This document shows positions 7,149-34,991 of a stretch of 64,000 nucleotides of DNA, in pieces; positions within the stretch are counted from its first letter, which is position 1; each line of letters opens with the position of its first letter. The DNA comes from a bacterium (lineage in GTDB: Bacteria; Joyebacterota; Joyebacteria; Joyebacterales; Joyebacteraceae). The notes under the pieces were generated by a model. It ran no database searches and was not told the origin of the DNA. It saw only the letters and a program-made list of their open reading frames with translations. The position numbers and the translations under genes were made by a program. The stretch is taken from positions 186,001 to 250,000 of the forward strand of contig JALGZK010000005.1 in NCBI GenBank assembly GCA_025774935.1, given 5' to 3'.

Positions 7149-7158
7149 GATTCTTGGA

Positions 7159-18255: not shown

Positions 18256-19062
18256 CTAAGCCCACGTTCCGTGCTCAGTTGCGAGTCTCGCGGCTGCCTC
18301 CGACTCCACGTCGTCCAGCGTTCCCTGAACGAGACTCAGTCCCCAGGCGCGCTCGAACCCGAGCCGCATCGCGCGCGCGACCTCATCGAACTGCGCGGGC
18401 CTGCCGAGCACGCACGCGAGGTCGGTCGTCTTCGCGCGGAGAGAGCGCCGTATCATCTTACGCTGTCTCTCGTTCCGGACGCGCAGGAGGTCGGCGAGGG
18501 CGAGGTGCGTGTCGTCCGTGAGGAGCGAGCCGTGCTGGAGCACCGCACCCGAGGAGCGCCGCTGCGCGCTTCCGACGAGCTTCCTCCCGTCGACGACGAT
18601 CTCGTACCGGCCCGCGCTCACGAAACACGGCGGGCTGGGCCCGTCCCCTTCCCCGCGCGGGTCGGTCACGACAGTCGCGAGCTCTGCTGTGACGCCCAGG
18701 ATCGAGAGGCCTTCGATGAGTCCCCCGGCGATAACCCTGTAGTCCTCCATGATCGAGTTCCCGAGCGGTAGGACGCCGGCGGGTGCGACGACGGCGTACG
18801 TGAGCTCACCCGCGTGAAGGACCGCCCGGCCGCCGGTCGGGCGCCGCACGACGCCGACCCCGGCCGCGGCGCACGCGTCGAGGTCGAGCTCCGACTCGAC
18901 GTCCTGCGAGTGCCCCGTCGAGACCGTTGGCGGTTGCCACCCGAAGACGCGGACGGTCGGCGGCGAGGTGCCGGCGGCAACGCCGAGGAGGAGTGCCTCG
19001 TCGACCGCCATGTTCCAGGCGCCGTCGCGATGCCCTGTGTCCAGGAACCGCCAGCTCTGCAC
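18256..19062 (-). CDS. lplA: Lipoate-protein ligase A family protein
   Basis: 268 residues of the biotin/lipoate ligase fold: AWNMAVDEALL at the N-terminus, VRRPTGGRAVLHAGELTYAV (the RRxTGG nucleotide/lipoate loop), and DGRKLVGSAQRR with the lysine that contacts lipoyl-AMP. Attaches lipoate or octanoate to carrier domains; GcvH encoded at 33.3 kb is a likely target. GTG at 19062 is preferred because AGGGAGG precedes it, over an in-frame GTG at 19080 with no ribosome site. Scavenging ligase and octanoyltransferase cannot be distinguished here. Confidence 0.88.
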   Translation of the reverse strand: MQSWRFLDTGHRDGAWNMAVDEALLLGVAAGTSPPTVRVFGWQPPTVSTGHSQDVESELDLDACAAAGVGVVRRPTGGRAVLHAGELTYAVVAPAGVLPLGNSIMEDYRVIAGGLIEGLSILGVTAELATVVTDPRGEGDGPSPPCFVSAGRYEIVVDGRKLVGSAQRRSSGAVLQHGSLLTDDTHLALADLLRVRNERQRKMIRRSLRAKTTDLACVLGRPAQFDEVARAMRLGFERAWGLSLVQGTLDDVESEAAARLATEHGTWA

Positions 19063-19086
19063 GGAACCCTCCCTCTTCACACGGAA

Positions 19087-19180: not shown

Positions 19181-19864
19181 CTAGTCGATCACGTGCAGCC
19201 AGTCCCGGAGCAGGAACGTCATCCTGCCGATCAGAAGCGACACTCGGCCCATCACCGTGTATCCGAACGACGCGCCGAACGCCACCATCAGGTACAGGAT
19301 GCCGATCTTGGCCGCGACGCCGAGCGCGCCCTTGTGCTCCTTCGAGAAGAAGAAGTACAGGAGCACGGCGACGACGCCGACGATCGCCGAGAGGTTCAGG
19401 ATGAGCGAGAGCACTCCCCCTCCCGTGAGCGGCGTCCTCATCGTCGCGTAGATCTGCTCGACGAAGTCCCCCTGGGCGAAACCGGTCAGGTTGACGGCCG
19501 CGTACATCCCGACGATGAACGCGAGCGCCCACCTCGAAAGCCAGGAGAGCTTTGGGAAGAACCGGAGGAGCATGAAGATCGCGAGTATGCCCGGGAACAC
19601 ACGGTACCAGATGAGCGGCTCGCCGGAGTCGCCGGGGAAGAGCGCCACGAAGAGCTTCGGCTTGAGCGTGTTGTGGTAGAGGGTCGCGAGCCAGTACGCG
19701 GCACCGATCCCGACGAAGAGGCTCTCCGCGAACTTGTAGAACGGGTTGTCCTTGTAGAGGAAGCTGTAGATGCAGAGGGTGAGAAGAGCGCCGACCCACG
19801 TCCCCCAGAAGACGGCGGTGGTCGTCCCGGGCGCTCCTGTGAAGAACTCCTGCAGCCAGCTCAT
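19181..19864 (-). CDS. Cassette protein D2: polytopic membrane protein of unknown function
   Basis: 227 residues, about six membrane helices. Clear paralogue of D1 (22691-23530): both share GALLTLCxYSFLYKDNPFYKFAE near the N-terminus, a motif ending RFFPKLSW or RFFPKIAW, and a C-terminal GASFGYTVMxRxSLLIGR followed by WLH. D2 lacks about 50 residues (two helices) found in the middle of D1. Fourth and last gene of the second cassette, 16 bp after C2. I recognise no named function; the cassette context suggests a subunit of a membrane complex. Confidence 0.8.
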   Translation of the reverse strand: MSWLQEFFTGAPGTTTAVFWGTWVGALLTLCIYSFLYKDNPFYKFAESLFVGIGAAYWLATLYHNTLKPKLFVALFPGDSGEPLIWYRVFPGILAIFMLLRFFPKLSWLSRWALAFIVGMYAAVNLTGFAQGDFVEQIYATMRTPLTGGGVLSLILNLSAIVGVVAVLLYFFFSKEHKGALGVAAKIGILYLMVAFGASFGYTVMGRVSLLIGRMTFLLRDWLHVID

Positions 19865-19880
19865 CTACCGGCCCTCACGT

Positions 19881-20720
19881 TCAGCTCTGCCCGCCCACCG
19901 GGGCGGATCGCCTGCTCACGAAGTAGACCACGTTTCCGAACAGGATGAAAAGGACGATGAGCGCGTGGACGATCGACTGCGCGTCCATGCCCTTCGTCGC
20001 GTCGGCGGGTGCCCCGACGAGCGTCTCGTACTCGGCGGCGCCCTTGAGCCCTCCGAGTAGGCCGACCAGCTGTCCGCTCGAGACGTATGGGTAGAAATTC
20101 GGCGCGCCGACGGCGGTCGTCCCCGACCCGAGTGTCACGTCGAACCTGCTCACGGCCTGCTGGACCCACTCCCTCGTTCCGGGCGTCCCGGCGGAAACCT
20201 CCATCACGAGCGCGACGTCGGCGAGGCTTCCGACCTCGTCCATGAGCGGGATCTCGCCGACGGGCGTCCCGTAGTAGTCGCGCGGGAACGTGCCCGGGAT
20301 GCTGTTGCCCATGCCGAGAATCGTGACCGGCCCACCCGTCATGTACCCCAGGTTCACGTAGTCGACGCCGTACTCCTTGTCGAACTCCTCAACGAGCGGA
20401 GCAAGAGCGGCCTCGACGAGCGGAGGAGAGGCCGGCCAGAGGCACGTGATCACAACCCGGAGATCGTTCTTGAAGGCGTGCCTCAGGAACGCGATCGACA
20501 TCGGCTGGAGCTCGGGCATGCTGTCGGGGCTGTAGTCGCCGCCGAACATGACGATCGTGCCGGGCGGAAGCGCCTCGACCGCGTCGAAGAGCGACTGGAC
20601 GGGCGGCGAGACGCCGATGGGGAGCCCCAGAGGCTTGATGAGCGGGATCGCGACGGCCACGAAGATCAGCAGGAAGATGATCCTGCGGTCGATGCTCTGT
20701 ATGTTCAATCCCCTCGCCAT
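19881..20720 (-). CDS. Cassette protein C2: membrane-anchored protein with about 200-residue soluble domain
   Basis: 279 residues: N-terminal membrane helix (IIFLLIFVAVAIPLIKPLGL), a soluble alpha/beta-looking domain, and a C-terminal helix (IVHALIVLFILFGNVVYFV). Paralogous to C1, sharing PPVQxLxDAVE, a DYxPxxxPELxPM segment, LRHxFxxDxRV, FPxDxYGTPxxEIPxM and SGQLVGLLGGxxGAAEYExL. No known catalytic motif is evident. 15 bp after B2. Both hydrophobic ends flanking one soluble domain suggest a sensor, binding or assembly subunit; this is inference. Confidence 0.8.
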   Translation of the reverse strand: MARGLNIQSIDRRIIFLLIFVAVAIPLIKPLGLPIGVSPPVQSLFDAVEALPPGTIVMFGGDYSPDSMPELQPMSIAFLRHAFKNDLRVVITCLWPASPPLVEAALAPLVEEFDKEYGVDYVNLGYMTGGPVTILGMGNSIPGTFPRDYYGTPVGEIPLMDEVGSLADVALVMEVSAGTPGTREWVQQAVSRFDVTLGSGTTAVGAPNFYPYVSSGQLVGLLGGLKGAAEYETLVGAPADATKGMDAQSIVHALIVLFILFGNVVYFVSRRSAPVGGQS

Positions 20721-20735
20721 CCGTCCGCTTCTCCC

Positions 20736-21410
20736 CTACTTCTCCCCGCCGAGATACGACCTCTCGATCCCGAGGATGATCCTGAGCCCCATCGCCATCA
20801 CGCCGAGCGCGGCGCCCATGAGGATCCCCCGAAACGCCGCCATGTTCGGGTATGCCATGATCGTCTCCGTGATCCACGGAAGCTGCGCCTGCTCCGGCAG
20901 GCTCCGCGTCATCAGCTGCCCGAGCGGAACGCGCCCGAGCATGACGATGATCGCCGCGATGAGAAGCAGGCTCGCCTCGGCCGACCGGAGCCTGAACGCG
21001 CGGTACGCGGCGGATGCGATGAAGAACGCCAGGAGCGAGAACATCGTGCTCTGGAGGGGGACCTGCATGTAGATGAACATCCAGTTGAACGGCGACCCCT
21101 GCTCCACGGTCCCGATCAGCTCGTTCGGCCCCAGGCGGGCGCCCGGCCACAGACCGAGCCAGAGCATCGCAGCCATGACCGTGAGGGTGACGATGCTGTA
21201 GCCCCACCCCTCGTTCCGTCGGGCGATCTTCTTGGAATGGACCCTGATGAGGTTCCCGATTCCGAGCAGGATCGACGCCGCGATCACGATGATCCCCCAC
21301 TGCTTCATCTCGTCCGCGGCCGTGGTCACGGCCGTGTGCGGGATGAAGAAGTCGACGATCATGAAGACGCCGATCAGGAACGTGATCGCGATCGGGATCT
21401 CTCTTCTCAC
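20736..21410 (-). CDS. Cassette protein B2: polytopic membrane protein
   Basis: 224 residues with about six membrane helices. Paralogue of B1: shared features include IPHxxVxxA near residue 25, LIRVHxxKxxxR after helix 2, SPFNxMFxYxQVPxxxTMFSLLAF in helix 4 and VMLGRVPxGxxxxxxxPE after helix 5, then ERxxxGG at the C-terminus. GTG start at 21410 with GGAGTGAAG upstream, 12 bp from the A2 stop. Function unknown. Confidence 0.8.
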   Translation of the reverse strand: MRREIPIAITFLIGVFMIVDFFIPHTAVTTAADEMKQWGIIVIAASILLGIGNLIRVHSKKIARRNEGWGYSIVTLTVMAAMLWLGLWPGARLGPNELIGTVEQGSPFNWMFIYMQVPLQSTMFSLLAFFIASAAYRAFRLRSAEASLLLIAAIIVMLGRVPLGQLMTRSLPEQAQLPWITETIMAYPNMAAFRGILMGAALGVMAMGLRIILGIERSYLGGEK

Positions 21411-21422
21411 AGCTTCACTCCG

Positions 21423-22652
21423 CTAGTTCGTGTGGAACCACTCGACGAACGCGTCGGCGCCCGCGAGGTTCATGATGATACCGACAACGATGAGGCCGAT
21501 CGTAATGATCTTCATCCAGTCCGAGCCCTTGAGCCCGCCGAGGAGCTTCGGTTCCCGGGACAGATACGCGCTCGCGGCATAGAGCTCCTCGCCGAGGAGC
21601 GTGTAGTCGCACGCCGTCACGAAGAACGGGAGCTGGGAGACCATCGCCGTGCCCGCGACCTGGATCGCTCCCGCCTCGAATCCGGTCTCTGCCAGGAGGA
21701 GCGACTCCGCCCAGAACGCCCCGAGGTAGAGGTTCGCGGCCGGGCGCTCGCGAAGCATGATCCCGTTCACGGCTCCCGCGAACGCGAACTGGGCGTCCGA
21801 GAGGTAGCGGATGTTGTCCGGGTTATAGGCGTCGGGCTTGCCCGCCTCCGCGTAGGCCTCCTTCACGACCTCCTCGGCCGCCGACATCACGACCGCGCGC
21901 GCGGTCGGGACGATGAGCGGTGTCTCGTACCGCGCCGTGATCTTCGCGACGTGAGACAGAATCGTCAGCGAGGCGATCGTCATGATGTTGTCGATCTCAC
22001 CGATGCCCGGGACGTAGAGGACAGGCCTGCCCATCTCTGTCGCGCGACCGACGGCTTCCTCGATGGCGTTCAGGCCGGGGATGCGCCGGACGAAGAGCTC
22101 GGCGCCCTTCTCCGCGAGCCGCGTGAACGCCAAGACGAGCGCGAAGAAGATCGCCGCGAGCACGAGGACCGCCAGACGGCTCACGGTGAACCAGTCGCGC
22201 CTACCGGAGACCGGCCCGAAGGCCGCCTCGCCGGAGAGCGACGTCCCGTCGGTGGCGGTCACGGCGTAGTAGTAGGGAACCCCGGGAACCGCGGTGTCGT
22301 CGACGAAACTCGACGTCCCGGCGACGACCAGCGCGAGCGTGTCGCCGCGGGCGTCGGGCGACTCGGAACGCCACAGGTAGTATCCGGTCACGTCCCTCAT
22401 TCCCCCGGCGTCGTCCGGGGAGAGCGTCCACGTGAGCTCGATCTTGTCACCGGCGTCGTCGTTGTCGACGAGGTCGACGGCGGTGAGGTCCGTCGCGGGC
22501 GCGGGCGGAAGAATGTCGGGAATCGTGTCGGGTGGCGCGAGCCCGGTCTCGATGGGAACGGGGTCGTCCTGAGCGGACGCCCAGCCGCACGAGAGGGCCA
22601 CAATCAGTACGGAGAGAACTGCGAGAGATGCTCTCATCATCGAACCGCGCAT
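21423..22652 (-). CDS. Cassette protein A2: Fn3 domain, membrane helix and conserved cytoplasmic-type domain
   Basis: 409 residues: signal peptide (LAVLSVLIVALSCGWASAQ), a fibronectin type III domain (about 45-155), a membrane helix (LAVLVLAAIFFALVLAF), a well-conserved region of about 200 residues (AVGRATEMGRPVLYVPG, EEVVKEAYAEAGKP, GAVNGIML, AAxLYLGAFWAESL, CDYTLLGEELYAASAYLSRE), then LLGGLKG and a final helix. I associate the conserved part with a domain of unknown function (DUF6754, from memory, not checked). Paralogue of A1. The start is uncertain: ATG at 22652 or 22640, neither with a strong ribosome site. Confidence 0.8.
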   Translation of the reverse strand: MRGSMMRASLAVLSVLIVALSCGWASAQDDPVPIETGLAPPDTIPDILPPAPATDLTAVDLVDNDDAGDKIELTWTLSPDDAGGMRDVTGYYLWRSESPDARGDTLALVVAGTSSFVDDTAVPGVPYYYAVTATDGTSLSGEAAFGPVSGRRDWFTVSRLAVLVLAAIFFALVLAFTRLAEKGAELFVRRIPGLNAIEEAVGRATEMGRPVLYVPGIGEIDNIMTIASLTILSHVAKITARYETPLIVPTARAVVMSAAEEVVKEAYAEAGKPDAYNPDNIRYLSDAQFAFAGAVNGIMLRERPAANLYLGAFWAESLLLAETGFEAGAIQVAGTAMVSQLPFFVTACDYTLLGEELYAASAYLSREPKLLGGLKGSDWMKIITIGLIVVGIIMNLAGADAFVEWFHTN

Positions 22653-22690
22653 CAGTGACGAAGATCTGCCGCCCGGCGGGCGGAGTGACA

Positions 22691-23530
22691 CTAGATCAGG
22701 TGCAGCCAGTCCGTGAGGAGGAAGCTCACCCTGCCGATGAGGAGCGAGATCCTCGACATCACCGTGTAGCCGAACGACGCTCCGAACCCGACCATGAGGA
22801 AGATGATGCCAATCCGGGCAAGCCCGCCCAGGAGCCCCGCATGCCTCATGGAGAAGAAGAAGTACGCCAAGGTCCCCAGGAGTCCGACGACGAGCAGGAT
22901 GTTCGTCATCGACACGACGCCCTGGGCCGAGAGCGCTGACAGCACCACGTAACCGCCGTACCCGGCGACGGCTGACAGAACGACCGCACCGATCGACATG
23001 GCGATGCCGCGGGCGACGATGTGCCGCTTCACGAGCAGGAAGTACGTCAGCACCACAAAGATGGCGAACCCGAGCGCGGCGTTCGTCGCGGCCGCGAACG
23101 GATCGGGCACGCCCGCCAGGGGTGACGAAGCGGCCTGCATCTGATCGATGACGCGCGCCTGCATCACCGGCGAGATGCCGAGACCCGCGTAGCCTCCGAC
23201 GTAGATCCCGAGCGGCCACCGGCCCACCCACGCGATCTTGGGAAAGAAACGCGTGTAGAGCAGGAGGCCCAGGAGACCGGGGATGAGCGCCATCCACCAC
23301 TCGGTGCCGCCGAACGCGACGGCCTCGCCTCCGAGCTCGAGCTGGAAGACCGGCCGCACGACATTCGGGTCGATGAAGTTGAAGTAGTAGATCACGAGGT
23401 AGTAGCCGGCCGACACGCCGACGACGAGGTGCTCGGCGAATTTGTAGAACGGGTTGTCCTTGTACAGGAAGCTGTAGACGCACAGCGTCAGGAGCGCCCC
23501 GACTGTCGTCCAGATGAAGGTGAGCGTCAT
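22691..23530 (-). CDS. Cassette protein D1: polytopic membrane protein
   Basis: 279 residues and about eight membrane helices; the longer of the two D paralogues. It carries the same N-terminal LYKDNPFYKFAE and C-terminal GFGASFGYTVMSRISLLIGR blocks as D2, plus an extra helix pair around residues 135-190 (KRHIVARG then AMSIGAVVLSAVAGYGGYVV). Fourth gene of the first cassette; its stop is 38 bp before the A2 start, so the two cassettes form one continuous transcript. GAGGCGG ribosome site. Function unknown. Confidence 0.8.
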   Translation of the reverse strand: MTLTFIWTTVGALLTLCVYSFLYKDNPFYKFAEHLVVGVSAGYYLVIYYFNFIDPNVVRPVFQLELGGEAVAFGGTEWWMALIPGLLGLLLYTRFFPKIAWVGRWPLGIYVGGYAGLGISPVMQARVIDQMQAASSPLAGVPDPFAAATNAALGFAIFVVLTYFLLVKRHIVARGIAMSIGAVVLSAVAGYGGYVVLSALSAQGVVSMTNILLVVGLLGTLAYFFFSMRHAGLLGGLARIGIIFLMVGFGASFGYTVMSRISLLIGRVSFLLTDWLHLI

Positions 23531-23589
23531 TTCCGCCTCCGCGAGGTCGGGCCCTCAGGCCGCCGGGCTCGAGCGCCCGCCGTCCGTCC

Positions 23590-24444
23590 CTACGTCCCTT
23601 CGCCCGCCAGCTTCCTCTGTCTCCTCGTCATGAAGTACGCGAGGTTCCCGAGGATGATCAGGATGATGATGATGAGATGGATCACGGACTGCGAGTCCAT
23701 GCCCCGCACGCCGGAGCCGTGCTGTCCGATTAGCTCTTCGTACTCGGCCGCGCCGCGCATCCCGCCCAGGAGTCCGACGAGCTGCCCGGAGTCGAGGTAT
23801 GGATAGAGGTCGGTCGCCATGACCGCCGTCACGCCGCCGCCGACCCTCTGTCCGTAAGGCTGGTGCGCGTAGTAGACCCACGCCTCCGACGCGGACCACC
23901 CGGCCAGGGAGATGAGGAGCGGGATGTCGTCGTAGTTCCGGATCCCCTCCATCATGGGGATTTCGGTGAGAGGCGTCCCGTAGGCGTCCTCCGGGAAGAC
24001 GTTCGAGATGTTAACGCCGAGACCCAGGATGACCGCCGAGGTGCCGGGCTGAAACCCGAGGAAGCAGAAGTCCTCGCCGTACTCGGCCCCCTCCTCCTCC
24101 GCCGCCGCGAGGATCGCGCTCTCGGCCATCCCGTAGCCCGCGGGGTGGAGTGTCATCACGATGACCCGGGCGTCCTGCCGGAAGACGTGACGTAGGATAG
24201 CCGTCGACATCGGCTCGAGCTCGGGTGAGGTCGCCGGCGTATAGTCGATCGAGAGGAGGAGCGGCGGACCTCCCAACTCGAGCTCTTCGACCGCGTCGTA
24301 GAGGCGTTGCACCGGCGGCGTCACGACGACGGGCAGACCGAGCGGCAGGAAGAACGGGACGACCACCGCGATCGCGATCGCGAGGAAGATCCAACGCCGG
24401 TCGATCCTGAGGAATTTCTCGAAGAACTCCGTCACCGATGCCAT
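23590..24444 (-). CDS. Cassette protein C1: membrane-anchored protein with soluble domain
   Basis: 284 residues; N-terminal helix (IFLAIAIAVVVPFFLPLGLP), soluble domain with LSIDYTPATSPELEPMSTAI, LRHVFRQDARVIVMTLHPAG, EYGEDFCFLGF and FPEDAYGTPLTEIPMM, then SGQLVGLLGGMRGAAEYEEL, a C-terminal helix (LIIIILIILGNLAYFM) and a basic tail. Conserved with C2 along its whole length. The linker just before the last helix (GMDSQSVIH) is nearly identical in both copies. Ribosome site GGAGG. Confidence 0.8.
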   Translation of the reverse strand: MASVTEFFEKFLRIDRRWIFLAIAIAVVVPFFLPLGLPVVVTPPVQRLYDAVEELELGGPPLLLSIDYTPATSPELEPMSTAILRHVFRQDARVIVMTLHPAGYGMAESAILAAAEEEGAEYGEDFCFLGFQPGTSAVILGLGVNISNVFPEDAYGTPLTEIPMMEGIRNYDDIPLLISLAGWSASEAWVYYAHQPYGQRVGGGVTAVMATDLYPYLDSGQLVGLLGGMRGAAEYEELIGQHGSGVRGMDSQSVIHLIIIILIILGNLAYFMTRRQRKLAGEGT

Positions 24445-24489
24445 CGATGCCTCCGGGCGCGGCCGTCCACGCCCCTCACGGTACTCGGA

Positions 24490-25119
24490 CTAGTCGCCGC
24501 CGCCCATCCATGCGCGCTCGATGCCGAGCATGATCTTGAGGGCCGTCGCCATCATGCCGAGGCCGACGCCGATCATGATGCCCCGCTTCGCGGCGAGGTT
24601 GGGCACTTCGAGGATCCACCTCGTCGCCTCGGGGATCCTCGCCGAGATCATGTCGCCGATTGGCACTCGACCGAGCATCACGATCGCTGCCGCGACGAGC
24701 AGCAGCGTCGCCTCGAGCGTCCTCGCGCGGAACGCGCGGAAGGCGGCCGAGGCGATGTAGAACGCCAGGAGCGAGAACATCGTCGCTTCGATCGGGACCT
24801 GGACGTACAGGAACATCCGGTTGAAGGGCGATCCGGGCGCGTGGTGCGATGGGTGGAAGAAGCCGAGACCGATCATGAGGAAGAGCCCGACGAACATCAC
24901 GATGCTAAACCCGCGATCGGGCGCCCGGTCCCTCACCTTGTGGTAGTGCACCCTGATGAGACTCACGGTTCCGAGGAGGAACGCGAACGCGAGGAGCGTC
25001 TGCAGCCAGAGGAGCAGGCGCTCGTAGGCCGCCGCCACGTTGTGGTGCGGAATGAAGTACTGCACCGCCATGAAGAGACCAGCGATGAAGCAGAGTGTCA
25101 GCGGTACTCTTCGACGCAT
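24490..25119 (-). CDS. Cassette protein B1: polytopic membrane protein
   Basis: 209 residues, about six hydrophobic segments: near 6-25, 35-55, 71-88, 103-128, 134-157 and 180-198. It shares the SPFNRMFLYVQVPIEATMFS helix and RVPIGDMI with B2, and a loop KRGIMIGVG that lines up with B2's RGILMGA. His residues cluster near the first loop (IPHHN) and in GFFHPSHHA; the second cluster is absent from B2. 58 bp after A1. Function unknown. Confidence 0.8.
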   Translation of the reverse strand: MRRRVPLTLCFIAGLFMAVQYFIPHHNVAAAYERLLLWLQTLLAFAFLLGTVSLIRVHYHKVRDRAPDRGFSIVMFVGLFLMIGLGFFHPSHHAPGSPFNRMFLYVQVPIEATMFSLLAFYIASAAFRAFRARTLEATLLLVAAAIVMLGRVPIGDMISARIPEATRWILEVPNLAAKRGIMIGVGLGMMATALKIMLGIERAWMGGGD

Positions 25120-25177
25120 CCTGAATCCCTCGGATCTTCGGCTCGCCCGCGCCGATGCGCGGGTCTCCGTGCGGTGC

Positions 25178-26419
25178 CTACTGCGTTTCGAGAAACGGCG
25201 TCATGAAATCGTACTGAATCACGCCCACCGAAGCGAGCGTGGCGACCACGGTCGTGATGATGATGGTGATCGCGATGAGCATCTTGAGCGTGTCCTGCCC
25301 CTTGAGACCGCCTAGGAGGACGGGCTCGCGCGACAGGTAGGCGCTCGCGGCGTAGAGCTCCTCGCCGATGAGCGTGTAGTCGCAGGACGTAATAAAGAAC
25401 GGGAGCTGGGTCACCGCATCGGTGCCTGCGATCTGGATCGAGCCGACCGACGCACCCGTCTCGGCGAGAACCAGCGACTCGGCGTAGAACATGCCCATGT
25501 AGAGGATCGTCGCGGGGCGCTGCCGGACCATGATGCCGTTCACGCCCGCCACGTAGGCGAACTGGCTCCTCGTGAGATAGAAGACGTCGTCCTCGTTGTA
25601 CGACTCAGGCCTGCCGACCTTGGCGTACGCCTCCTTGACGACCTCCTGCTCGACGGCCATAACGATCGGGTCGGCACACGGGACGATGAGCCGGGTGTTG
25701 TACTCGGCGGTCTTCTTCGCAACCTCGCCCAGGATGTTGATCGCGGCGATGGTCGCGACGTCCGAAACCGTCGAGAGGCCCGAGATGTAGAGGATGGGCT
25801 TCCCCATCTCAGTGGCGCGGCCGACGGCGTTGTCGACCTCGTCGAGACCCGCGAGGCGTCTGATGAAGAGGTCCTTGCCCCGGCGGGCCGCGGTCACGAA
25901 GTAGATGATCGCCGCAACGAAGATGATGACGGCGATCATGACGTTGACGCGATCTCGGTTGAACCAGGCGGGAAGCGCCACGGCGGGCTCCGACGTGGCC
26001 GAGAACGACTCGGCTCCTGTCTCGTCAGTCGCCGAGACGCGGTAGTAGGTCGGCGCATTCTCCGGAGCGCCGCCGTCCCGGTACTCCGCGTTGCCGGGCC
26101 ACGCCCTGCCGGCGAAGACGAATCCGGTCTCCGGGTGGGCCGAGCGGTAGACTCGATACGAGGTGACCCTCCCGGTCTCTTCACCGTCGGAGAGTTCCCA
26201 AGTGACGTTGATGGAGTACCCTCGGTCGTTCGGGGTGTCCGTGGCCGTGACGGCGGTCGGGGGCCCGAGAGGCGGAAGGCTATCGGCGGGGACCGCTTCG
26301 GTCTCCTCCTGCGCGAGCGCGGCGGCCGGGCAAACGAAAAGGGCCGCGACCGACACCACGCCGGCAACAAGCCCCATCACTGCGCGCGCCGTGCTCGAGC
26401 GCCCTCTGTGACCCCTCAT
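25178..26419 (-). CDS. Cassette protein A1: Fn3 domain, membrane helix and conserved domain
   Basis: 413 residues with the A2 architecture: signal peptide ending AAALAQ, Fn3 domain (WELSDGEETGRVTSYRVYRS to YYRVSATDETG), membrane helix (VMIAVIIFVAAIIYFV), the conserved region (NAVGRATEMGKPILYISG, QEVVKEAYAKVGRP, GVNGIMVRQRPATILYMGMF, CDYTLIGEELYAASAYLSRE), LLGGLKG, and a last helix. First gene of the eight-gene run, with its own promoter at 26494-26522. The signal peptide and Fn3 domain place the N-terminal part outside the cytoplasm. Conserved domain tentatively DUF6754 from memory. Confidence 0.82.
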   Translation of the reverse strand: MRGHRGRSSTARAVMGLVAGVVSVAALFVCPAAALAQEETEAVPADSLPPLGPPTAVTATDTPNDRGYSINVTWELSDGEETGRVTSYRVYRSAHPETGFVFAGRAWPGNAEYRDGGAPENAPTYYRVSATDETGAESFSATSEPAVALPAWFNRDRVNVMIAVIIFVAAIIYFVTAARRGKDLFIRRLAGLDEVDNAVGRATEMGKPILYISGLSTVSDVATIAAINILGEVAKKTAEYNTRLIVPCADPIVMAVEQEVVKEAYAKVGRPESYNEDDVFYLTRSQFAYVAGVNGIMVRQRPATILYMGMFYAESLVLAETGASVGSIQIAGTDAVTQLPFFITSCDYTLIGEELYAASAYLSREPVLLGGLKGQDTLKMLIAITIIITTVVATLASVGVIQYDFMTPFLETQ

Positions 26420-26599: not shown

Positions 26600-27727
26600 C
26601 TAGTGCTCGATCATCTCGACGTTGGCACGGGGCAGGAGCGCCTCCGAGCCGTCTTCGAACCTGACTTCGAGCACCCTGACCATCGACTCCGACTCCATCT
26701 TCTGGAGCTCGTTCGGAAGCTGCGTGACCTCGCCGAGCCTTCCGAAGTAGGGCTCGCGGATGACGCGGATCGAGCTGCCGATCTCGAGGCCCGTCGCCTC
26801 GCCCACCGCCTCTTCCTGGAGCTTGTCCCGCTCCTCGACGATCGGTATGACGATCTCGGGCCGGATGACGCCCGCCCGGATCTGCGTCGCCCCGTTGACG
26901 GACGCCTTCCTTCCTTCGCGCTTCTTGAGGAGGTCGAACGTCCCGTGGGCCATGGCGATCTCGCCGAAGCCCTCGGTGAGAACGAGCGTGGTCGTCACGT
27001 CCTCGTGTCCGGTGATCGCCACCCCGAGGTCCTTCCCCAGGAGGCGCTTGAGATCCGGATCGTCGAATCCCCCGACGACGACGCCCGCCGCCCCGACCTG
27101 CATCGCCTTCTGGAGCCCGTCCCACGTGACGTGCGAGCCGCCGATGACGATCTGGTCCTTCATCGAGTCGTCGAACCTGGACGCGTCGAGAACCTCTCCC
27201 GCGTTGGCGACCGCGACCTTGATCTCCCCGGTCCTCTCGCCGCCGACGCCGAAGATGCCCTGGATGAACGTCCCGACCGTCTCGATCGCGACCCCCTCCT
27301 CCTCCATCACCTCGACGACCTGGCCGTCGACGTAGGCGTCGATCTGGATCGGGGTCGGGGGCTCCCGCAGGATGACCTGTCCAGTGACCGTCGAGATGTT
27401 CTCGAGGGAACCGTCGCACGGCGACGGGACGTTCGACTTGAACAGGCCGAAGAACCCCTTCGTCGTCGCGATGGGCTCGCCCTTCTCGATTGCGTCACCT
27501 TCCTTCTTGACCATGACGGTCGGGAGGTCCTCCGGTGGAAGCCCCAGCTTGCTCGCGACGTTCACGAGCTGGACGTTCCCGGGGAGATGGGTCCTCGCCA
27601 CGACCGTGTCCGAGGTCACCACGTCACCCTTCGCGACGAGGACCTCGCCCTTGATGGGGAGCCGGCGCTCCTTCCTGAGCACCGTGAGCTCCGCGACCCT
27701 CAGGCCTGGTGTGTATGCGTGTGCCAT
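26600..27727 (-). CDS. Lipoyl-like/KOW-domain protein paired with MutL
   Basis: 375 residues. The N-terminal third has biotinyl/lipoyl-type hammerhead strands (IKGEVLVAKGDVVTSDTVVA; KKEGDAIEKGEPIATTKGFF; VPSPCDGSLENI), without the carrier lysine motif. A middle domain has glycine-rich turns (IVIGGSHVTWDGLQKAMQVG; AAGVVVGGFDD). The C-terminus (IREPYFGRLGEVTQLPNELQ to EALLPRANVEMI) looks like a KOW/SH3-type barrel. Start ATG at 27727; a longer open frame extends over the mutL end. It directly follows mutL (52 bp), suggesting a joint role. No characterised function known to me. Confidence 0.72.
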   Translation of the reverse strand: MAHAYTPGLRVAELTVLRKERRLPIKGEVLVAKGDVVTSDTVVARTHLPGNVQLVNVASKLGLPPEDLPTVMVKKEGDAIEKGEPIATTKGFFGLFKSNVPSPCDGSLENISTVTGQVILREPPTPIQIDAYVDGQVVEVMEEEGVAIETVGTFIQGIFGVGGERTGEIKVAVANAGEVLDASRFDDSMKDQIVIGGSHVTWDGLQKAMQVGAAGVVVGGFDDPDLKRLLGKDLGVAITGHEDVTTTLVLTEGFGEIAMAHGTFDLLKKREGRKASVNGATQIRAGVIRPEIVIPIVEERDKLQEEAVGEATGLEIGSSIRVIREPYFGRLGEVTQLPNELQKMESESMVRVLEVRFEDGSEALLPRANVEMIEH

Positions 27728-27779: not shown

Positions 27780-29582
27780 CTACGCCACGGGGTAGGCGTC
27801 GAACGCCTTCGCCCACTTGTCGAGCTTCGCGACCCTCTGCTGCTCGTCGGTCGGGAGCACGAAAGGCCTCCCCCTCGTGTCGACGACGACGCCGACGACA
27901 CCTCCGCCGAGCGTGGCCTCGAGGACCTTCCCCTGCCCCGCGCCCGCGTCGAAGCCGCGCGCAGGTGTGATCTTGATGCCGACGGTCTCCCCTACTCCGA
28001 GCGGGTAGACCTTCATCTCGCCGAAGGGGATGTCCTCGTCGATTGCCGTGCCGTCCGGGAAGGTCGCCTCGAGCTTGATGCAAGGCTTCCCTTCCTGCGC
28101 CGTCCCGACGGGCGCCACGAGCGTGCCGAGGTGGATCAGGCAGTCCTTCTCGAAGACCTCGGTCGCCGCCTTTTCGTGCACCTCCGCGAGTACGCCCAGC
28201 TGCGGCATCATGAAGATCGAGTCGACCGCGAGCCTCGTGATGCCCTCCGGCAGGAAGCCGTCGACGAGCATCATCGCGGCCTGCTGCCTGCGCGGGGCGT
28301 GCGAGAGAACACCGCCCGAACCGACCAGGAGATCGAGGTCCATCATGTTGACGAGGGTCTCTCCCGACGCCGACTGGCTGAACGCGTCGGAGATCGTCCG
28401 CTCCTGCTGGACGCCCTTGAGACCGACCGCGAACGACTTGTGCTGCTCGAACGCCAGGCGAAGCGCCTCGCGCGCGATCGCCTGCTCGAGCTTGAGGTCG
28501 TCGAGCGCCTGAGGCACAGTCGTCGGCCGGATCATCTTGTTCTTGATTCGGTTCCTGACCCCAAGCTCCGGGAGCTCGAACGGGACCCAGCGCATGACGT
28601 TCTCGATGCCCGCCTCTGCCAGCACGTTCGAGACCGAGTAGCTCATGCCGAGGTTCGCCGAGACCGTGCGGTTGAACGTGTCCTGGAAGACCGAGAAGAC
28701 GTCGGTCGTGGCGCCGCCAATGTCGACGCCCACGACCTCGATGTCCTGCCGCTTGGCGATCGTCTCGATGATCGACCCGACGGCGCCCGGTGTGGGCATG
28801 ATCGGGGCGTCGGTCCATCCCATCAGCTTGTTGTACCCCGGCGCCTGGGCCATCACGTGTTCCATGAAGAGGTCATGGATCTTGTCCCTGGCGGGCCCCA
28901 GGTTCTCCCTCTCGAGAACCGGGCGGAGGTTGTCGACCATCTCGAGGGCCGTCTTGTCTCCAAGGAGGTTCTCGACCTCGCCGCGCGCGTCGGTGTTGCC
29001 GGCGTAGATGATCGGGAGGTTGTAGCCGATCCCCAGGCGCGGCTTCGGGTCGGCCGCTGAGATGACCTGTCCGAGCTCGACCACGTGTGTGATCGTGCCG
29101 CCGTCGATCCCGCCCGAGAGGAGGATCATGTCGGGCCTCAGGTGACGGATCCGCTCGATCTTCTCGTGCGCGAGCCTGCCGTCGTTCGACGCCAGCGCGT
29201 CCATCACGATCGCCCCGGCGCCAAGCGCCGCGCGCTCAGCGCTCTCGGCGGTCATGCTCATGACGACTCCGGCCACCATCATCTGGAGTCCGCCGCCCGC
29301 GCTCGAGGTCGAGAGGTAGAGATCGACCCCGCGCTCGCCGTCGTTCGGGTGGATGATCTTCTCGCCGTCGAGGACCTCGTGACCCGAGAGCTCCTCCACC
29401 TCCCTGATCGCGTTCAGCACACCCCGCGTCACGTCCTCGAACGGCGCCTCGACCGTCGTCGGGGCTTCGCCCCTCACGATCAGCCGGTACTCTCCATCGA
29501 CAAGCTTGATCAGGATCGCCTTCGTCGTCGTGCTACCGCAGTCGGTCGCGACGATGGCCCTGACCTTCGCGTTCTCACTCAT
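27780..29582 (-). CDS. MutL/GlmL-family ASKHA ATPase (mutase accessory type)
   Basis: 600 residues. The N-terminus holds the ASKHA phosphate-1 loop (VATDCGSTTTKAILIKL), followed by STSSAGGGLQMMVAG and a second phosphate loop (VVGVDIGGATTDVFSVFQDT). This is the family of the glutamate mutase accessory protein (GlmL/MutL), thought to reactivate B12 enzymes as an ATP-dependent chaperone. No B12-dependent mutase is encoded in the window. Start ATG overlaps the upstream small gene's stop by 4 bp (ATGA), so the two are coupled. Family certain; client enzyme unknown. Confidence 0.88.
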   Translation of the reverse strand: MSENAKVRAIVATDCGSTTTKAILIKLVDGEYRLIVRGEAPTTVEAPFEDVTRGVLNAIREVEELSGHEVLDGEKIIHPNDGERGVDLYLSTSSAGGGLQMMVAGVVMSMTAESAERAALGAGAIVMDALASNDGRLAHEKIERIRHLRPDMILLSGGIDGGTITHVVELGQVISAADPKPRLGIGYNLPIIYAGNTDARGEVENLLGDKTALEMVDNLRPVLERENLGPARDKIHDLFMEHVMAQAPGYNKLMGWTDAPIMPTPGAVGSIIETIAKRQDIEVVGVDIGGATTDVFSVFQDTFNRTVSANLGMSYSVSNVLAEAGIENVMRWVPFELPELGVRNRIKNKMIRPTTVPQALDDLKLEQAIAREALRLAFEQHKSFAVGLKGVQQERTISDAFSQSASGETLVNMMDLDLLVGSGGVLSHAPRRQQAAMMLVDGFLPEGITRLAVDSIFMMPQLGVLAEVHEKAATEVFEKDCLIHLGTLVAPVGTAQEGKPCIKLEATFPDGTAIDEDIPFGEMKVYPLGVGETVGIKITPARGFDAGAGQGKVLEATLGGGVVGVVVDTRGRPFVLPTDEQQRVAKLDKWAKAFDAYPVA

Positions 29583-29953
29583 CCGGAACCTTCCTTCAGT
29601 CTCTTCGCGGCGAGCTTCTCTTCCTTCCGCTTCCTCTTCCCCTCACGCTCCGCCTTCCGTCTCTCTGCTTCCAGCTCCTCTATCTTACACAGGAGGTACT
29701 CGATGTTCTCCCGGTCCTCGAGGACCTCGACGATCTCGTCGTAGCTCTTGAAGCTGAAGATCGACTGGACGATCGGCTGGAAGAAGATGAGGGCCTGGTT
29801 GCCGAGAAACGACAGCGGCTTCGACGACTCGAGGAACATAATCGCGGGTGCCGTCATCCGCCAGTCGACAACCTTCGCCGCGAAGCGGTCCATCGCCTCA
29901 CGGTGCTCCTCGCGCTTCTCCTCCGCCCTCTCGTGGTCCTTCATCGCCCACAT
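29579..29953 (-). CDS. Small amphipathic/coiled-coil protein coupled to mutL
   Basis: 124 residues: charged N-terminal helix (KDHERAEEKREEHREAMDRF), a hydrophobic central stretch (TAPAIMFLESSKPLSFLGNQ then ALIFFQPIVQSIFSF), and a highly charged C-terminal coiled coil (IEELEAERRKAEREGKRKRK). It overlaps the gene before it by 55 bp and mutL after it by 4 bp. The central motif looks conserved and membrane-seeking. Probably a membrane-associated partner of one of its neighbours; no named family recognised. Confidence 0.72.
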   Translation of the reverse strand: MWAMKDHERAEEKREEHREAMDRFAAKVVDWRMTAPAIMFLESSKPLSFLGNQALIFFQPIVQSIFSFKSYDEIVEVLEDRENIEYLLCKIEELEAERRKAEREGKRKRKEEKLAAKRLKEGSG

Positions 29954-30401
29954 CGTCTTCCCTCTCGCCCGCCTGCCCCATCATCATCTCGACGAACGCC
30001 ACCACCTCGTCGCGGTTCCCGTGGAACTGAAGGGAGAACCCGCGGAACTTCTCCAGCCGCGACCTCACGACGAAGGGAGACAGGAGGAGTCCGCCGGGAT
30101 CGACGTAGTAGCTCCGGAACTCCGTCCAGGCCTTCTCCTTCTTCGACACGAGCCCCTTCGCAGCGACCTTCTCCCGCGTGAGCGTGAAGGTCGCCGGCAG
30201 GAAGAAGCTCGCCACCTGTCCCCACACGAGGAGCACCGCGACGACGGTGAAGAGCCCCGTGTGGAAGATGCTCTGGAGCGTCCACGCGACGAGGGCGATG
30301 AACACCACCGCGAGGGCGGCCCGGCCGGGGCTCAGGAGCATCGGCCACGCCCGCCAGGTCAGGCTCTCCGCCCGATCGACTCGCTCTGCGTTCGTCGTCA
30401 C
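29898..30401 (-). CDS. Small membrane protein with two helices and a PH-like soluble part
   Basis: 167 residues. Two adjacent hydrophobic helices (AALAVVFIALVAWTLQSIFH; LFTVVAVLLVWGQVASFFL) lead into FTLTREKVAAKGLVSKKEKA and RSYYVDPGGLLLSPF, which resembles bacterial PH-type or YcxB-like domains on membrane stalks. GTG start at 30401 overlaps the gcvPB stop (GTGA) with GGAGGA just upstream, so it is translationally coupled to gcvPB. Start is moderately certain; function unknown. Confidence 0.68.
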   Translation of the reverse strand: MTTNAERVDRAESLTWRAWPMLLSPGRAALAVVFIALVAWTLQSIFHTGLFTVVAVLLVWGQVASFFLPATFTLTREKVAAKGLVSKKEKAWTEFRSYYVDPGGLLLSPFVVRSRLEKFRGFSLQFHGNRDEVVAFVEMMMGQAGEREDDVGDEGPREGGGEARGAP

Positions 30402-31936
30402 TCCTCCCGGTCGCCGTCCCAGGAGCAGACGTCGAGCTCCCGGGCCGCGCACGCCTCGTCCATGCGCCCCACCGGTGTCGAGGTCGGCGCCCCGGTAACG
30501 AGCTCGGGCGTCTCCTCGCTCTCGCGCGCGATCGCGATCATCGCCTCGGCGAAACGATCGAGCGATTCCCTGCTCTCGGTCTCGGTCGGCTCGATCATGA
30601 GGGCCTCCTTGACGATGAGCGGGAAGTAGATCGTCGGCGCGTGGACCCCGTAGTCGAGGAGCCTCTTCGCGATGTCGAGCGCGCGGACCCCGTGCTCCTC
30701 CTTCTGTCTCGTCGCGGACAGCACGAACTCGTGCTGGCAGTACCCCTTGTACGGCAGCTCGTAGTGAGGCTCGAGGAGCGCCTGGAGGTAGTTCGCGTTC
30801 AGGACCGCGTTCTCGGCGACCCTCCTGAGTCCTTCCGGGCCGAGCGTCAGGATGTACGCGTAGGCCTTCGCCATCACCAGGAAGTTGCCGTAGACCGCGT
30901 GGACCTTGCCGATCGACTTCGGCCGGTCGTAGTCCATGAAGTACTCGTAGCCCTCGGCCTTCGCTTCGTCTCGCGACGCGAGAGGGTACGGCAGGTACTT
31001 CGTGAGGTGGGCCTTCACGCCGACCGGCCCCGACCCGGGCCCGCCGCCGCCGTGAGGCGCCGAGAACGTCTTGTGCAAATTGAAGTGCATGATGTCGAAG
31101 CCGGCATCGCCCGACCGCGCGATCCCGAGGGATGCGTTCAGGTTGGCGCCGTCCAGGTAGGCCAGCGCGCCCGCTTCGTGGACGACGTCGATGATCTCCT
31201 GAATGCGTGTCTCGAAGACGCCGAGCGTGTTCGGGTTCGTGATCATGACGGCCGCGGTGTCGCCGTCGACCTCGCGCCGGAGCTCGTCGACGTCGATGCG
31301 GCCGTCGGGCCCCGATGCGACCTCCATCGTGCAGTACCCGGCGAGCGCGACGCTCGCGGGGTTCGTGCCGTGTGCCGAGTCCGGGACGATGACGGTCTTT
31401 CTCTGGTCCCCACGGTCGGCGTGGTACGCGCGCACCATGAGCATGCCCACGAGCTCGCCGGACGCGCCCGCCGGCGGCTGGAGGCTCACGGCGTCCATTC
31501 CTGAGATCTCGGCGAGAAACCGCCCCAGGTGGTACATCATCGCGATGGCGCCCTGCGCGTACTCGCCCTCGACCTCGGGGTGGACGCCCGCGAGGCCCTC
31601 GAGCGCCGCGACGTCCTCGTTCACCCGCGGGTTGTACTTCATCGTGCACGACCCGAGGGGGTAGATTGCCCTGTCGACGTGGTGGTTCTTCTCGGCGAGC
31701 CGCGCGAAGTGGCGCACCACCTCGGGCTCGGTCAGCTCCGGAAGAGCCGGCGGCTCGGCGCGTAGCTGGTCGGCGCCCCACGCGGCCGCCGGATCGACCT
31801 CGGGAACGTCGAGTGGCGGAAGACGGTAGCCCCGCCTCCCCGGCCGGGAGAGCTCGAAGACCGTGGGCTCGCGGACGGAGGCCTGAGGGCTCGCTCCCCG
31901 GCCCGCTCGCTTCTCCCTGTCGGTCGCGGTGTTCAG
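30398..31936 (-). CDS. gcvPB: Glycine decarboxylase subunit 2 (P-protein, C-terminal half)
   Basis: About 512 residues. The PLP-dependent half of the P-protein: VFELSRPGRRGYRLPPLDVP, YPLGSCTMKYNPRVNED, LQPPAGASGELVGMLMVRAY, and the lysine region MHFNLHKTFSAPHGGGGPG. Works with GcvPA, GcvH and GcvT to cleave glycine. No ATG, GTG or TTG lies between the gcvPA stop and the conserved sequence. The listed start is a CTG at 31936 overlapping the gcvPA stop; alternatively the protein is made by a -1 shift on a G7 run from gcvPA. Function certain; start very uncertain. Confidence 0.9.
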   Translation of the reverse strand: MNTATDREKRAGRGASPQASVREPTVFELSRPGRRGYRLPPLDVPEVDPAAAWGADQLRAEPPALPELTEPEVVRHFARLAEKNHHVDRAIYPLGSCTMKYNPRVNEDVAALEGLAGVHPEVEGEYAQGAIAMMYHLGRFLAEISGMDAVSLQPPAGASGELVGMLMVRAYHADRGDQRKTVIVPDSAHGTNPASVALAGYCTMEVASGPDGRIDVDELRREVDGDTAAVMITNPNTLGVFETRIQEIIDVVHEAGALAYLDGANLNASLGIARSGDAGFDIMHFNLHKTFSAPHGGGGPGSGPVGVKAHLTKYLPYPLASRDEAKAEGYEYFMDYDRPKSIGKVHAVYGNFLVMAKAYAYILTLGPEGLRRVAENAVLNANYLQALLEPHYELPYKGYCQHEFVLSATRQKEEHGVRALDIAKRLLDYGVHAPTIYFPLIVKEALMIEPTETESRESLDRFAEAMIAIARESEETPELVTGAPTSTPVGRMDEACAARELDVCSWDGDREE

Positions 31937-33288
31937 GATTGCCCCCCCGTCGAGAGTATCGCCTCGAGACCCGAGGCGAGCGAATCGATGTCGTCCCTCG
32001 TGTGCCGCTCGGAGACCGTCACGAGCAGGCAATTGTCCATGCCGTCGTAGTAGCAGCTGCACTTGAGGCCCGGCCAGATCCCGATCTTCGAGAGCTCGCA
32101 CTTCACCCACGACGCGTCCGCCGGAAGCTCGACCACGAACTCTCGGAAGAACGGCCGCGCAAACCTGAGCGAGACCCCGGGGACGCCAGCGAGGGCGTCG
32201 GCGGCATAGCGGGCCTTCGACCCGAGCTGCATGGCCAGCTCGCGGAGGCCGTCCTTCCCAAGGAGGGAGAGGTAGACCGTGGCCCCGAGCGCCACGAGTC
32301 CTTCGTTCGTGCAGATGTTCGAGGTCGCCTTCTCGCGGCGGATGTGCTGCTCGCGCGTCTGGAGCGTCATCACGTACCCGCGGCGCCCGTCGCAGTCGTC
32401 GGCTCCCCCGATGATGCGCCCGGGGAGTCTGCGAAGGTGCCTCTCGGTGGTCGCCATGAAGCCGAGAAGCGGCCCCCCGAACGCCACGGGCGACCCCAGG
32501 CACTGCCCTTCCCCAACCGCGATCTCCGCCCCGTACTCGGCGGGGGACTTGAGGACGGCCAGGGACACCGGGTCGACCGAGGCGATCAGGAGCGCCTCCG
32601 ACTCGCCGACCAGCCGTCCGATCTCGTCCACGGGCTCGAGGAGCCCGAAGAAGTTCGGGTGCTGGACCACGACCGCGGCAGCGCCCGGGAGCCCCTCCCT
32701 GAGCGCCTCGAGATCGGTTGCGCCCCCGTCGGTCGGGAGCTCCACGATCTCGATCTCGCTCGACCCGAGGTAGGTCTTCGTGACTGCGCGGAGGGCCGGG
32801 TTCGTCGTCGCCGAGACGAGGATCTTCTTCTTCCTCTTGATGCCGGCCGCCATGAGACACGCCTCCGCCGCAGCGGATGCGCCGTCGTACATCGACGCGT
32901 TCGCTGCCGGGAGACCGGTGAGTCTCGCGACGAGCGACTGGAACTCGTAGATCGACTGGAGCGTGCCTTGGCTGGCCTCGGCCTGGTACGGGGTGTACGC
33001 CGTGAAGAACTGCGGCATGCCCGTCACGTGCCCGACCGCCGCGGGCGTGACGCAGTCGTAGACGCCGCCCCCGAGGAAGGAGACCACGCCCTCCCCCGTC
33101 CGGTTCATGGCCGCCAGCTTCCGCATGTGGCGGACGAGCTCGAGCTCGGCGAGCGGGCCAGGTATGTCGATGCGCTCGTCGGCGCGCAGGTCGGCCGGTA
33201 CGTCGGCGAAGAGCTCGTCGATCGACGAAGCTCCGATCGCGGCGAGCATCTCCTCGCGGTCACGCTCTGTGTTCGGAACGTAGGGCAA
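31933..33288 (-). CDS. gcvPA: Glycine decarboxylase subunit 1 (P-protein, N-terminal half)
   Basis: 451 residues: FLGGGVYDCVTPAAVGHVTG, FFTAYTPYQAEASQGTLQSI, YDGASAAAEACLMA, and TREQHIRREKATSNICTNEG, all standard for GcvPA. It pairs with GcvPB to decarboxylate glycine using PLP. TTG start at 33288 with GGAAGG upstream, 12 bp after gcvH. Its last codons include ACG GGG GGG, followed two codons later by the TGA, which is important for the gcvPB start question. Confidence 0.93.
   Translation of the reverse strand: MPYVPNTERDREEMLAAIGASSIDELFADVPADLRADERIDIPGPLAELELVRHMRKLAAMNRTGEGVVSFLGGGVYDCVTPAAVGHVTGMPQFFTAYTPYQAEASQGTLQSIYEFQSLVARLTGLPAANASMYDGASAAAEACLMAAGIKRKKKILVSATTNPALRAVTKTYLGSSEIEIVELPTDGGATDLEALREGLPGAAAVVVQHPNFFGLLEPVDEIGRLVGESEALLIASVDPVSLAVLKSPAEYGAEIAVGEGQCLGSPVAFGGPLLGFMATTERHLRRLPGRIIGGADDCDGRRGYVMTLQTREQHIRREKATSNICTNEGLVALGATVYLSLLGKDGLRELAMQLGSKARYAADALAGVPGVSLRFARPFFREFVVELPADASWVKCELSKIGIWPGLKCSCYYDGMDNCLLVTVSERHTRDDIDSLASGLEAILSTGGQS
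31942..31948 (-). other. G7 slippery-type heptamer at the gcvPA/gcvPB junction
   Basis: In the gcvPA frame the run reads ACG GGG GGG CAA TCC TGA, so G-GGG-GGG sits exactly as an X-XXY-YYZ heptamer. gcvPB lies in the -1 frame, is open across this point and lacks a normal start codon. Slippage here would fuse gcvPA to gcvPB. Confidence 0.45.
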
Positions 33289-33300
33289 AGCCCGCCTTCC

Positions 33301-33675
33301 CTATCCCTTCGTGTGAGCCTCGTACTGCTCCGCCGTCATGAGGCCCGAGACGTCGGCGTCCGGGGCGATCTTCATCTTGAGGATCCAGCCCTCGCCCTCG
33401 GCGTTCTTGTTGAGGATCGCGGGATCCGCGTCGAGCGCCGTGTTCACGTCGGTGACTTCGCCGGCGACCGGCGCGTAGAGCTCGCTCACGCTCTTGACCG
33501 ACTCGATCGTGGTCAGGACGTCGCCCGGGGCCAGCACCTGGCCGACGGCAGGCAGCTCGACGAACACGATGTCACCGAGTTCGCCCTGCGCGTAGTCGGT
33601 GAGGCCGAGCGTGGCCTCTTCGCCTTCGATCTTCAGCCACTCGTGCGTCTCGCTGTACTTGAGACCTTCGCTCAT
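33301..33675 (-). CDS. gcvH: Glycine cleavage system H protein
   Basis: 124 residues; lipoyl carrier that shuttles the aminomethyl group. It has THEWLKIEGEEATLGLTDYA, the lipoylation segment VLTTIESVKSVSELYAPVAG with the modified lysine, and a C-terminal EGEGWILKMKI. Normal length. 96 bp after gcvT and 12 bp before gcvPA in the gcv operon. The LplA-like protein at 18.3 kb may attach its lipoate. Confidence 0.96.
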   Translation of the reverse strand: MSEGLKYSETHEWLKIEGEEATLGLTDYAQGELGDIVFVELPAVGQVLAPGDVLTTIESVKSVSELYAPVAGEVTDVNTALDADPAILNKNAEGEGWILKMKIAPDADVSGLMTAEQYEAHTKG

Positions 33676-33771
33676 CCAGAACCTCGCTCTCGTCTGCCGG
33701 AGCAGCTCCTCCGGACCCCGCTGCCGTTCCTCGAGGGGCGAACGACGCCCCGTCTTCCGCCTTCGCTCTCG

Positions 33772-34881
33772 CTACTTCCTGCGGCGCACGCTCCCGTCGC
33801 GGTAGAAGGGAGGCTTCACCCTCCTCGCCGGGACGGTCCGGCCCCGCATCTCGATCTCGAGTTCGTCGCCGGCTACGACGCTCACGTAACCCAGCCCGAT
33901 GCCCTTCTCGAGGCTCGGCGAGTACGTACCGCTCGTCACGGCCCCGACCTCCTCGCCGCCGGCCAGGATGCGCTGGCCGGTCCTCGGGACACCTCGCCCC
34001 TCGAGCTCGAAGCCAGTCAGGCGCTCAGCAGAACCTTCTTCCGCGCGGGCGACGATCGCCTCGCGTCCGATGAAGTCGCCCTTGTCCTTCTTGACGACCC
34101 ACGAGAGACCGGCCTCGACCGGCGTCCGGGTCGCGTCGATGTCCTGTCCGTAGAGGTGGTAGCCCATCTCGAGGCGCAGGGTGTCCCGCGCCCCGAGCCC
34201 GATCGGCTCGACCCCCCACTCGGATCCCGCGCTCAGGAGCGCGTCCCAGACACGAGGCGCCAGTTCGTTCGCGCAGTAGATCTCGAATCCGTCCTCGCCC
34301 GTGTACCCCGTTCGCGACACGAGCGTCTTCGCGCCGAGGATGTCGAGCCGGACCGCCCGGTAGAAGCCGACCGCGGAGAGATCGGCCTCGACGATCCTGC
34401 CGAGGACGTCCTCCGACTTCGGACCCTGAATCGCAACAAGCTGCGTGTGGTCCGAGTGGTCCTCCAGCACGACGTCGCCGGAGATGTTCGACCTGATCCA
34501 GTCCAGGTCTTTCTCGCAGTTCGACGCGTTCACGACCAGCATGTAGCGTTCGGGCAATCTGTAGACGAGCACGTCGTCGACGATCCCGCCGTCCTCGTAG
34601 CACATGATCGTGTACTGGACCCGGCCTTCCTTGAGCGACTCAGCGCGGTTCGTCGTCAGCCGTTCGACCGCCGCGAGCGCGTCGGGCCCCCGGAGGACGA
34701 GCTGGCCCATGTGCGAGACGTCGAAGATCCCGACGGTCTGCCTCACGCGGTCGACCTCGGCGACGATGCCCCTGTAAGACATCGGCATCGCCCAGCCGAA
34801 GAAGTCCACCATCTTCGCTCCGGCCGCGACGTGCCGCTCGTAGAGCGCCGTCCTTCTCTCCGCGGTGGCCGTCGGGATCAC
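33772..34881 (-). CDS. gcvT: Aminomethyltransferase (glycine cleavage T protein)
   Basis: 369 residues: YERHVAAGAKMVDFFGWAMP, VRQTVGIFDVSHMGQLVLRG, YTGEDGFEIYCANELAPRVW, and LRLEMGYHLYGQDIDATRTP, all GcvT hallmarks. Transfers the methylene group to tetrahydrofolate. The GTG at 34881 is chosen because AGGAGAGGAAG precedes it; the frame runs further upstream to 34989, but that part overlaps the predicted leader and has no family sequence. First gene of the gcv operon, driven by the promoter at 34992-35020. Confidence 0.95.
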   Translation of the reverse strand: MIPTATAERRTALYERHVAAGAKMVDFFGWAMPMSYRGIVAEVDRVRQTVGIFDVSHMGQLVLRGPDALAAVERLTTNRAESLKEGRVQYTIMCYEDGGIVDDVLVYRLPERYMLVVNASNCEKDLDWIRSNISGDVVLEDHSDHTQLVAIQGPKSEDVLGRIVEADLSAVGFYRAVRLDILGAKTLVSRTGYTGEDGFEIYCANELAPRVWDALLSAGSEWGVEPIGLGARDTLRLEMGYHLYGQDIDATRTPVEAGLSWVVKKDKGDFIGREAIVARAEEGSAERLTGFELEGRGVPRTGQRILAGGEEVGAVTSGTYSPSLEKGIGLGYVSVVAGDELEIEMRGRTVPARRVKPPFYRDGSVRRRK

Positions 34882-34954
34882 CTTCCTCTCCTGCTGTTGC
34901 TCGGGCACCCGTCCGCGGGCAGACCCTGACGACCGCCCCGGGACGTGCTCCTGC

Positions 34955-34981
34955 GGATGCGCCCCCGTGAGGCGTCCGAAG
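34955..34981 (-). promoter_or_regulatory. gcvT leader hairpin, shared with the methyltransferase gene
   Basis: In the minus-strand RNA, CTTCGGACGCC and GGCGCATCC form a hairpin with a 2-nt CA bulge, starting 10 nt after the -10 box. Nearly the same element occurs at 36038-36062 at the same distance from its promoter. It does not match the glycine riboswitch. Confidence 0.5.
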
Positions 34982-34991
34982 ATATCCACCG

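Follow-up and report, generated by a model that had tools for sequence, protein, structure and literature searches.

The tandem pair of four-gene membrane cassettes (A-B-C-D) in the window, by which we mean the whole 64,000-nucleotide stretch of bacterial DNA that was analysed, is part of a larger conserved gene set in which the cassettes are accompanied by four upstream partners (W, Z, Y and X). We consider it probable that each A-B-C-D cassette specifies one inner-membrane complex and that the complexes are served by a shared W-Z-Y-X set, with Y using ATP. This reading draws on gene order, co-occurrence, copy numbers, paralogue age, the ATPase motifs of Y and predicted folds and topology, from which we infer a physical complex, ATP-driven action and any role in transport or envelope assembly. 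The cassette genes of the window are as follows.

A1, 25178..26419, minus strand: signal peptide, Fn3 domain (outside), TM helix, DUF6754 alpha/beta domain (predicted cytoplasmic) and TM helix, from topology, a PF20539 match of 401 bits and an AF2 model (pLDDT 91.8)
B1, 24490..25119, minus strand: six-helix membrane protein, N-in/C-in, from topology; no Pfam or PDB matches
C1, 23590..24444, minus strand: TM helix, alpha/beta domain (predicted extracytoplasmic) and TM helix, from topology and an AF2 model (pLDDT 96.1); no Pfam match
D1, 22691..23530, minus strand: polytopic membrane protein, from helix prediction and topology; no Pfam or PDB matches
A2 (second cassette), 21423..22652, minus strand: PF20539 match of 388 bits; 46% identity to A1 over 408 columns (BLASTP, E 6e-113)
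B2, 20736..21410, minus strand: 47% identity to B1 over 222 columns (BLASTP, E 1e-67)
C2, 19881..20720, minus strand: 46% identity to C1 over 273 columns (BLASTP, E 5e-75)
D2, 19181..19864, minus strand: two segments of 39% (E 3e-39) and 59% (E 9e-28) identity to D1 (BLASTP)

All eight frames are open and follow the order given in the original prediction, which had described two A-B-C-D repeats on the minus strand at 19181-26419, and the homology that it proposed between paired genes holds for all four pairs, B, C and D included, at 39-59% identity. B and D showed no homology to each other in sequence comparison. Gene spacing is as tight as had been suggested, with gaps of 12-59 bp when the start of A2 is set at about 22652. 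The predicted architectures likewise agree with the earlier descriptions of B (about six helices), C (a soluble domain between two helices) and D (polytopic), and those of A (signal peptide, Fn3, helix and conserved domain) gain a C-terminal helix. The proposed limits of the locus were not upheld. A promoter scan lists nothing in front of the cassettes, where a single promoter had been placed; a TTGACA-17-TAGCGT picked out by eye at about 26522-26494 has 9/12 consensus matches, and X lies upstream of it on the same strand. The terminal hairpin consists of a GC stem (z = -1.6) that lacks a T run, and a terminator is unsupported. The operon instead continues upstream, past 19181-26419, into four conserved partners that the original prediction had missed.

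X, 26600..27727, minus strand: barrel-sandwich-like N-terminus (weak lipoyl and RnfC_N matches), middle domain and KOW-like C-terminus; co-occurs with A
Y, 27780..29582, minus strand: predicted MutL/GlmL-like ASKHA ATPase with phosphate and adenosine motifs intact; co-occurs with A
Z, 29579..29953, minus strand: small conserved protein with a hydrophobic core (FLESxKPLSFxxSQ)
W, 29898..30398, minus strand: two helices, then a bacterial-PH-like domain, a stretch assigned through weak bPH_6/bPH_7 matches of two homologues

The general gene order is W-Z-(Y-X)-A-B-C-D. Z precedes Y or A wherever it is found, including the deepest loci, which read W-Z-A-B-C-D (L035) and Z-A-B-C-D-Y-X (L036). In two further phyla, 19 of the 20 loci fetched have W, Z or both ahead of A, and in most of the 20 W and Z directly adjoin the cassette; Y-X is adjacent in some and lies elsewhere in others. 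Distant forms of Y and X (Y' and X') are fused in one 904-residue frame containing an NQRA_N-like stretch (L129 in G000:C16, 8943-11657, minus strand), and the same fusion occurs in other members of the window's family; the fusion in L129 supports contact between Y and X.

Co-occurrence was assessed in 61 genomes, 31 with A (12 families) and 30 without (30 families), among which related genomes are not independent. Where A was present, strong X was found in 28 genomes, Y in 27 and Z in 28; in the genomes lacking A, X and Z were found in 0/30 and Y gave one weak match (G050). Exceptions to this pattern comprised two incomplete genomes (G012 and G015), one lacking X only (G018) and one whose sole Y or X material is a divergent Y'-X' pair (G049). 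The 100%-complete genome G026 carries three A genes, one X and one Z, with no MutL-type Y gene, and this absence counts against our preferred reading. Z and full-length X almost always occur as one copy, whereas cassettes number from one to four per genome.

The expectation that A, B, C and D co-occur in fixed order in other genomes was confirmed by 123 complete cassettes from many phyla, assembled from scan loci and directly fetched loci with the order A-B-C-D as a requirement; the mapped genes showed no other arrangement. Cassettes occur singly or as tandem pairs or triplets. Scattered single homologues, which had been named as evidence against the cassette, amount to no more than a minority of additional A genes that stand alone. 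Solitary A genes, or extra copies preceding another A, were seen in L052, L057, L069, L116, L075 (second A), L107 and L153 (first A); several of them belong to genomes or loci that also have full cassettes, and the several solitary copies are a second point against our reading. In L153 a tandem pair of A genes is followed by a single B-C-D (8446-10271), and C and D form a single open frame in L097 (12024-13751), a fusion that favours our reading.

Overall identity between the two cassettes of the window is 0.49, against 0.89 between either of them and the matching cassette of L041. In all four protein trees (A to D), type 1 and type 2 each form a monophyletic group (support >=0.999), and in no tree are they sisters; these trees and identities rule out a local tandem duplication. 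The array thus consists of old paralogues held side by side. The genome of the window, with 40 contigs totalling 3.24 Mb, also carries a third, unlinked cassette, which has no W-Z-Y-X alongside (L023, G000:C14:35001-54000, 6528-10088) and falls in another old clade. The claim of a tandem co-duplication yielding two specialized versions is therefore retained insofar as A-B-C-D travels as a unit, but there are three versions and they are old paralogues. Recent cassette expansion was seen in some WOR-3 loci only (L064). The distance matrices of A to D correlate at r = 0.74-0.84, values that include the effect of shared phylogeny.

A scan of named genome contigs detected at least 577 relatives of A, the best 80 of which span WOR-3/Stahlbacteria, Zixibacteria, Eisenbacteria, Latescibacterota, Poribacteria, Fermentibacteria, Edwardsbacteria, Coatesbacteria, CSSED10-310 and Armatimonadota, among others. 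Among the matches listed, the nearest named relative (71% identity to A1, for A only) is from a Candidatus Effluviviaceae MAG (L045), a family that belongs to the phylum Candidatus Effluviviacota (PMC11323493). DUF6754 is present in 15/15 genomes of the window's phylum, in 32/32 genomes of the phylum of G027 (as one Fn3-less copy), in 90/101 genomes of the phylum of G023 (mostly as one copy) and in 16/34 genomes of the phylum of G026, and was found in 0/14 well-known control genomes. Near-universal presence in three phyla and absence from the controls speak for a core function, not an accessory one. With 89-100% of the sampled genomes of these phyla carrying DUF6754, these bacteria share a core membrane system absent from standard model organisms.

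That none of the proteins had a nameable function still stands with respect to function, but A does have a family name: A1 and A2 far exceed the gathering cut-off of 27 bits for Pfam DUF6754 (PF20539), and the third A of the genome is an equally clear member at 383 bits. The family covers these three proteins, one protein of the eight in the set, and its model is silent on the cassette. B, C and D matched no Pfam or NCBIfam family above cut-off, and their profiles gave no convincing homologue among solved structures. The Fn3 domain of A is clear in the AF2 model and in Foldseek matches and weak in Pfam, and a fold search with A returned mostly Fn3. The confident AF2 models of A1 and C1 are alike in having a TM helix, a short helix, six beta-alpha units and a TM helix. 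Homology of the two alpha/beta domains is not claimed, because in profile comparison the real pair did not outscore block-shuffled controls. Assignment of C to a known fold was likewise rejected, the top PDB match (E 2e-3, TM about 0.5 at most) being generic Rossmann-like. Charge distribution over the 123 cassettes, read by the positive-inside rule, predicts that the A domain is cytoplasmic, that the C domain is outside and that B has six helices with both termini inside.

We propose that B and D would form the membrane core of the complex, with the DUF6754 domain of A on its cytoplasmic face, Fn3 outside in many lineages and the separate alpha/beta domain of C on the outer face. A single W, Z, Y and X set per genome would serve all cassettes, with the putative ATPase Y and X docking on the cytoplasmic face and ATP being spent on driving, loading or assembling the complex. 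A genome with two or three cassettes of ancient divergence may then have complexes of differing specificity run by one common engine. If Y does drive the complex, this would be a membrane machine powered by an actin/Hsp70-type ATPase, and the sharing of one engine by several modules makes specific tests possible (loss of the engine versus loss of one module). The W-Z-Y-X set with its one to four A-B-C-D modules, energized by an ATPase of the ASKHA and not the P-loop type and resident in the core genome of several phyla, may constitute a novel class of multi-subunit envelope machine, a proposal that we advance more tentatively than that of the complex itself. No described system with these parts was found in the open-access papers searched, in which DUF6754 is not mentioned and MutL/ASKHA and GlmL topics gave nothing relevant; a description in a subscription journal is possible.

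A more specific form of the same explanation is an ATP-driven transporter, with B and D as the conduit, C taking up substrate outside, A coupling to Y-X inside, and different cassettes handling different substrates. The two polytopic subunits, the soluble domains predicted on opposite membrane faces and the pairing of one partner set with several modules that resemble specificity units are all consistent with this arrangement, which resembles ECF transporters by analogy in that one energizing set is shared by several membrane modules. We nevertheless regard it as possible rather than likely, as the loci examined have no conserved substrate-linked neighbours and we know of no transporter with a MutL-type ATPase. 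Membership of the ABC/ECF group itself fails, because the conserved set of W, Z, Y, X and A to D contains no P-loop ATPase and Y is of the ASKHA type; no sequence relation to ECF systems was seen either.

In the window's family, the locus is flanked by genes of glycine cleavage and lipoate metabolism, giving the layout gcvT-gcvH-gcvPA-gcvPB-W-Z-Y-X-(ABCD)x2-lplA.

lplA, 18256..19080, minus strand: lipoate ligase LplA, downstream neighbour; association conserved in the family, candidate member only
gcvT-gcvH-gcvPA-gcvPB, 30398..34989, minus strand: upstream neighbours by association, candidate members only

Together with the MutL family membership of Y, these neighbours could fit a system that maintains or reactivates cofactor enzymes, in which Y would act like the GlmL/EutA reactivases and be tied to glycine cleavage and lipoate. 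Outside the family, L073 and L086 have gcvPB upstream as well, and L086 also has lplA on the downstream side. Y scores 421 bits against PF13941, with a cut-off of 27 bits, and is thus a member of the MutL superfamily, sharing the fold family and ATPase motifs of the glutamate-mutase-associated MutL/GlmL ATPases; its motifs DxGSTTTK, DxGGATTD and GxGG are invariant among homologues. However, Y falls under the NCBIfam equivalog cut-offs for GlmL (226 vs 475 bits) and Or-4 (214 vs 600 bits). It also differs in being tied to X, Z and the membrane cassettes, and no B12-dependent mutase was seen in the part of the neighbourhood that was scanned. Most other Y loci, moreover, have no gcv genes in their visible flanks, as is true of gcv and lplA for most other loci overall, and four membrane subunits would be left unexplained; with the sub-threshold equivalog scores, this makes a reactivation system improbable.

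The part of A ahead of TM1 varies from none to about 670 residues, as might be expected of a sensor or signal-transduction system whose Fn3 ectodomains vary. We also consider this quite unlikely, since the inner parts are highly conserved and kinase, HD, GGDEF and DNA-binding domains are absent. An RNF/NQR-type ion pump driven by redox reactions, suggested by the barrel-sandwich-like domain of X and by weak hits to RnfC_N for X and to NQRA_N for X', is very improbable: membership fails for want of cysteine motifs (one invariant Cys in A, none conserved in X, B, C or D, and no Fe-S motifs), the membrane subunits are unrelated, and Y is a predicted ATPase. The PADLOC 2023 models of known anti-phage systems matched none of the proteins A to D, X or Y.

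In most lineages the neighbouring genes differ (DHQ synthase, sulfatase, PPDK or ExbB/ExbD/TonB), so that function could not be read from them and the module seems to be self-standing. A DUF4388 protein and an ExbB/ExbD/TonB set lie 3' of D in L089 (10060-15194), as also in L076 and L120. A recO-like gene adjoins D in one lineage (L035, 13099-13905) and X' in another (L130, 7383-8111). In the window itself, a large TonB-dependent-receptor-like protein (15370-18156) is a conserved neighbour of lplA in the family, and a gene with weak likeness to PorV (type IX secretion) is located at 11974-13041.
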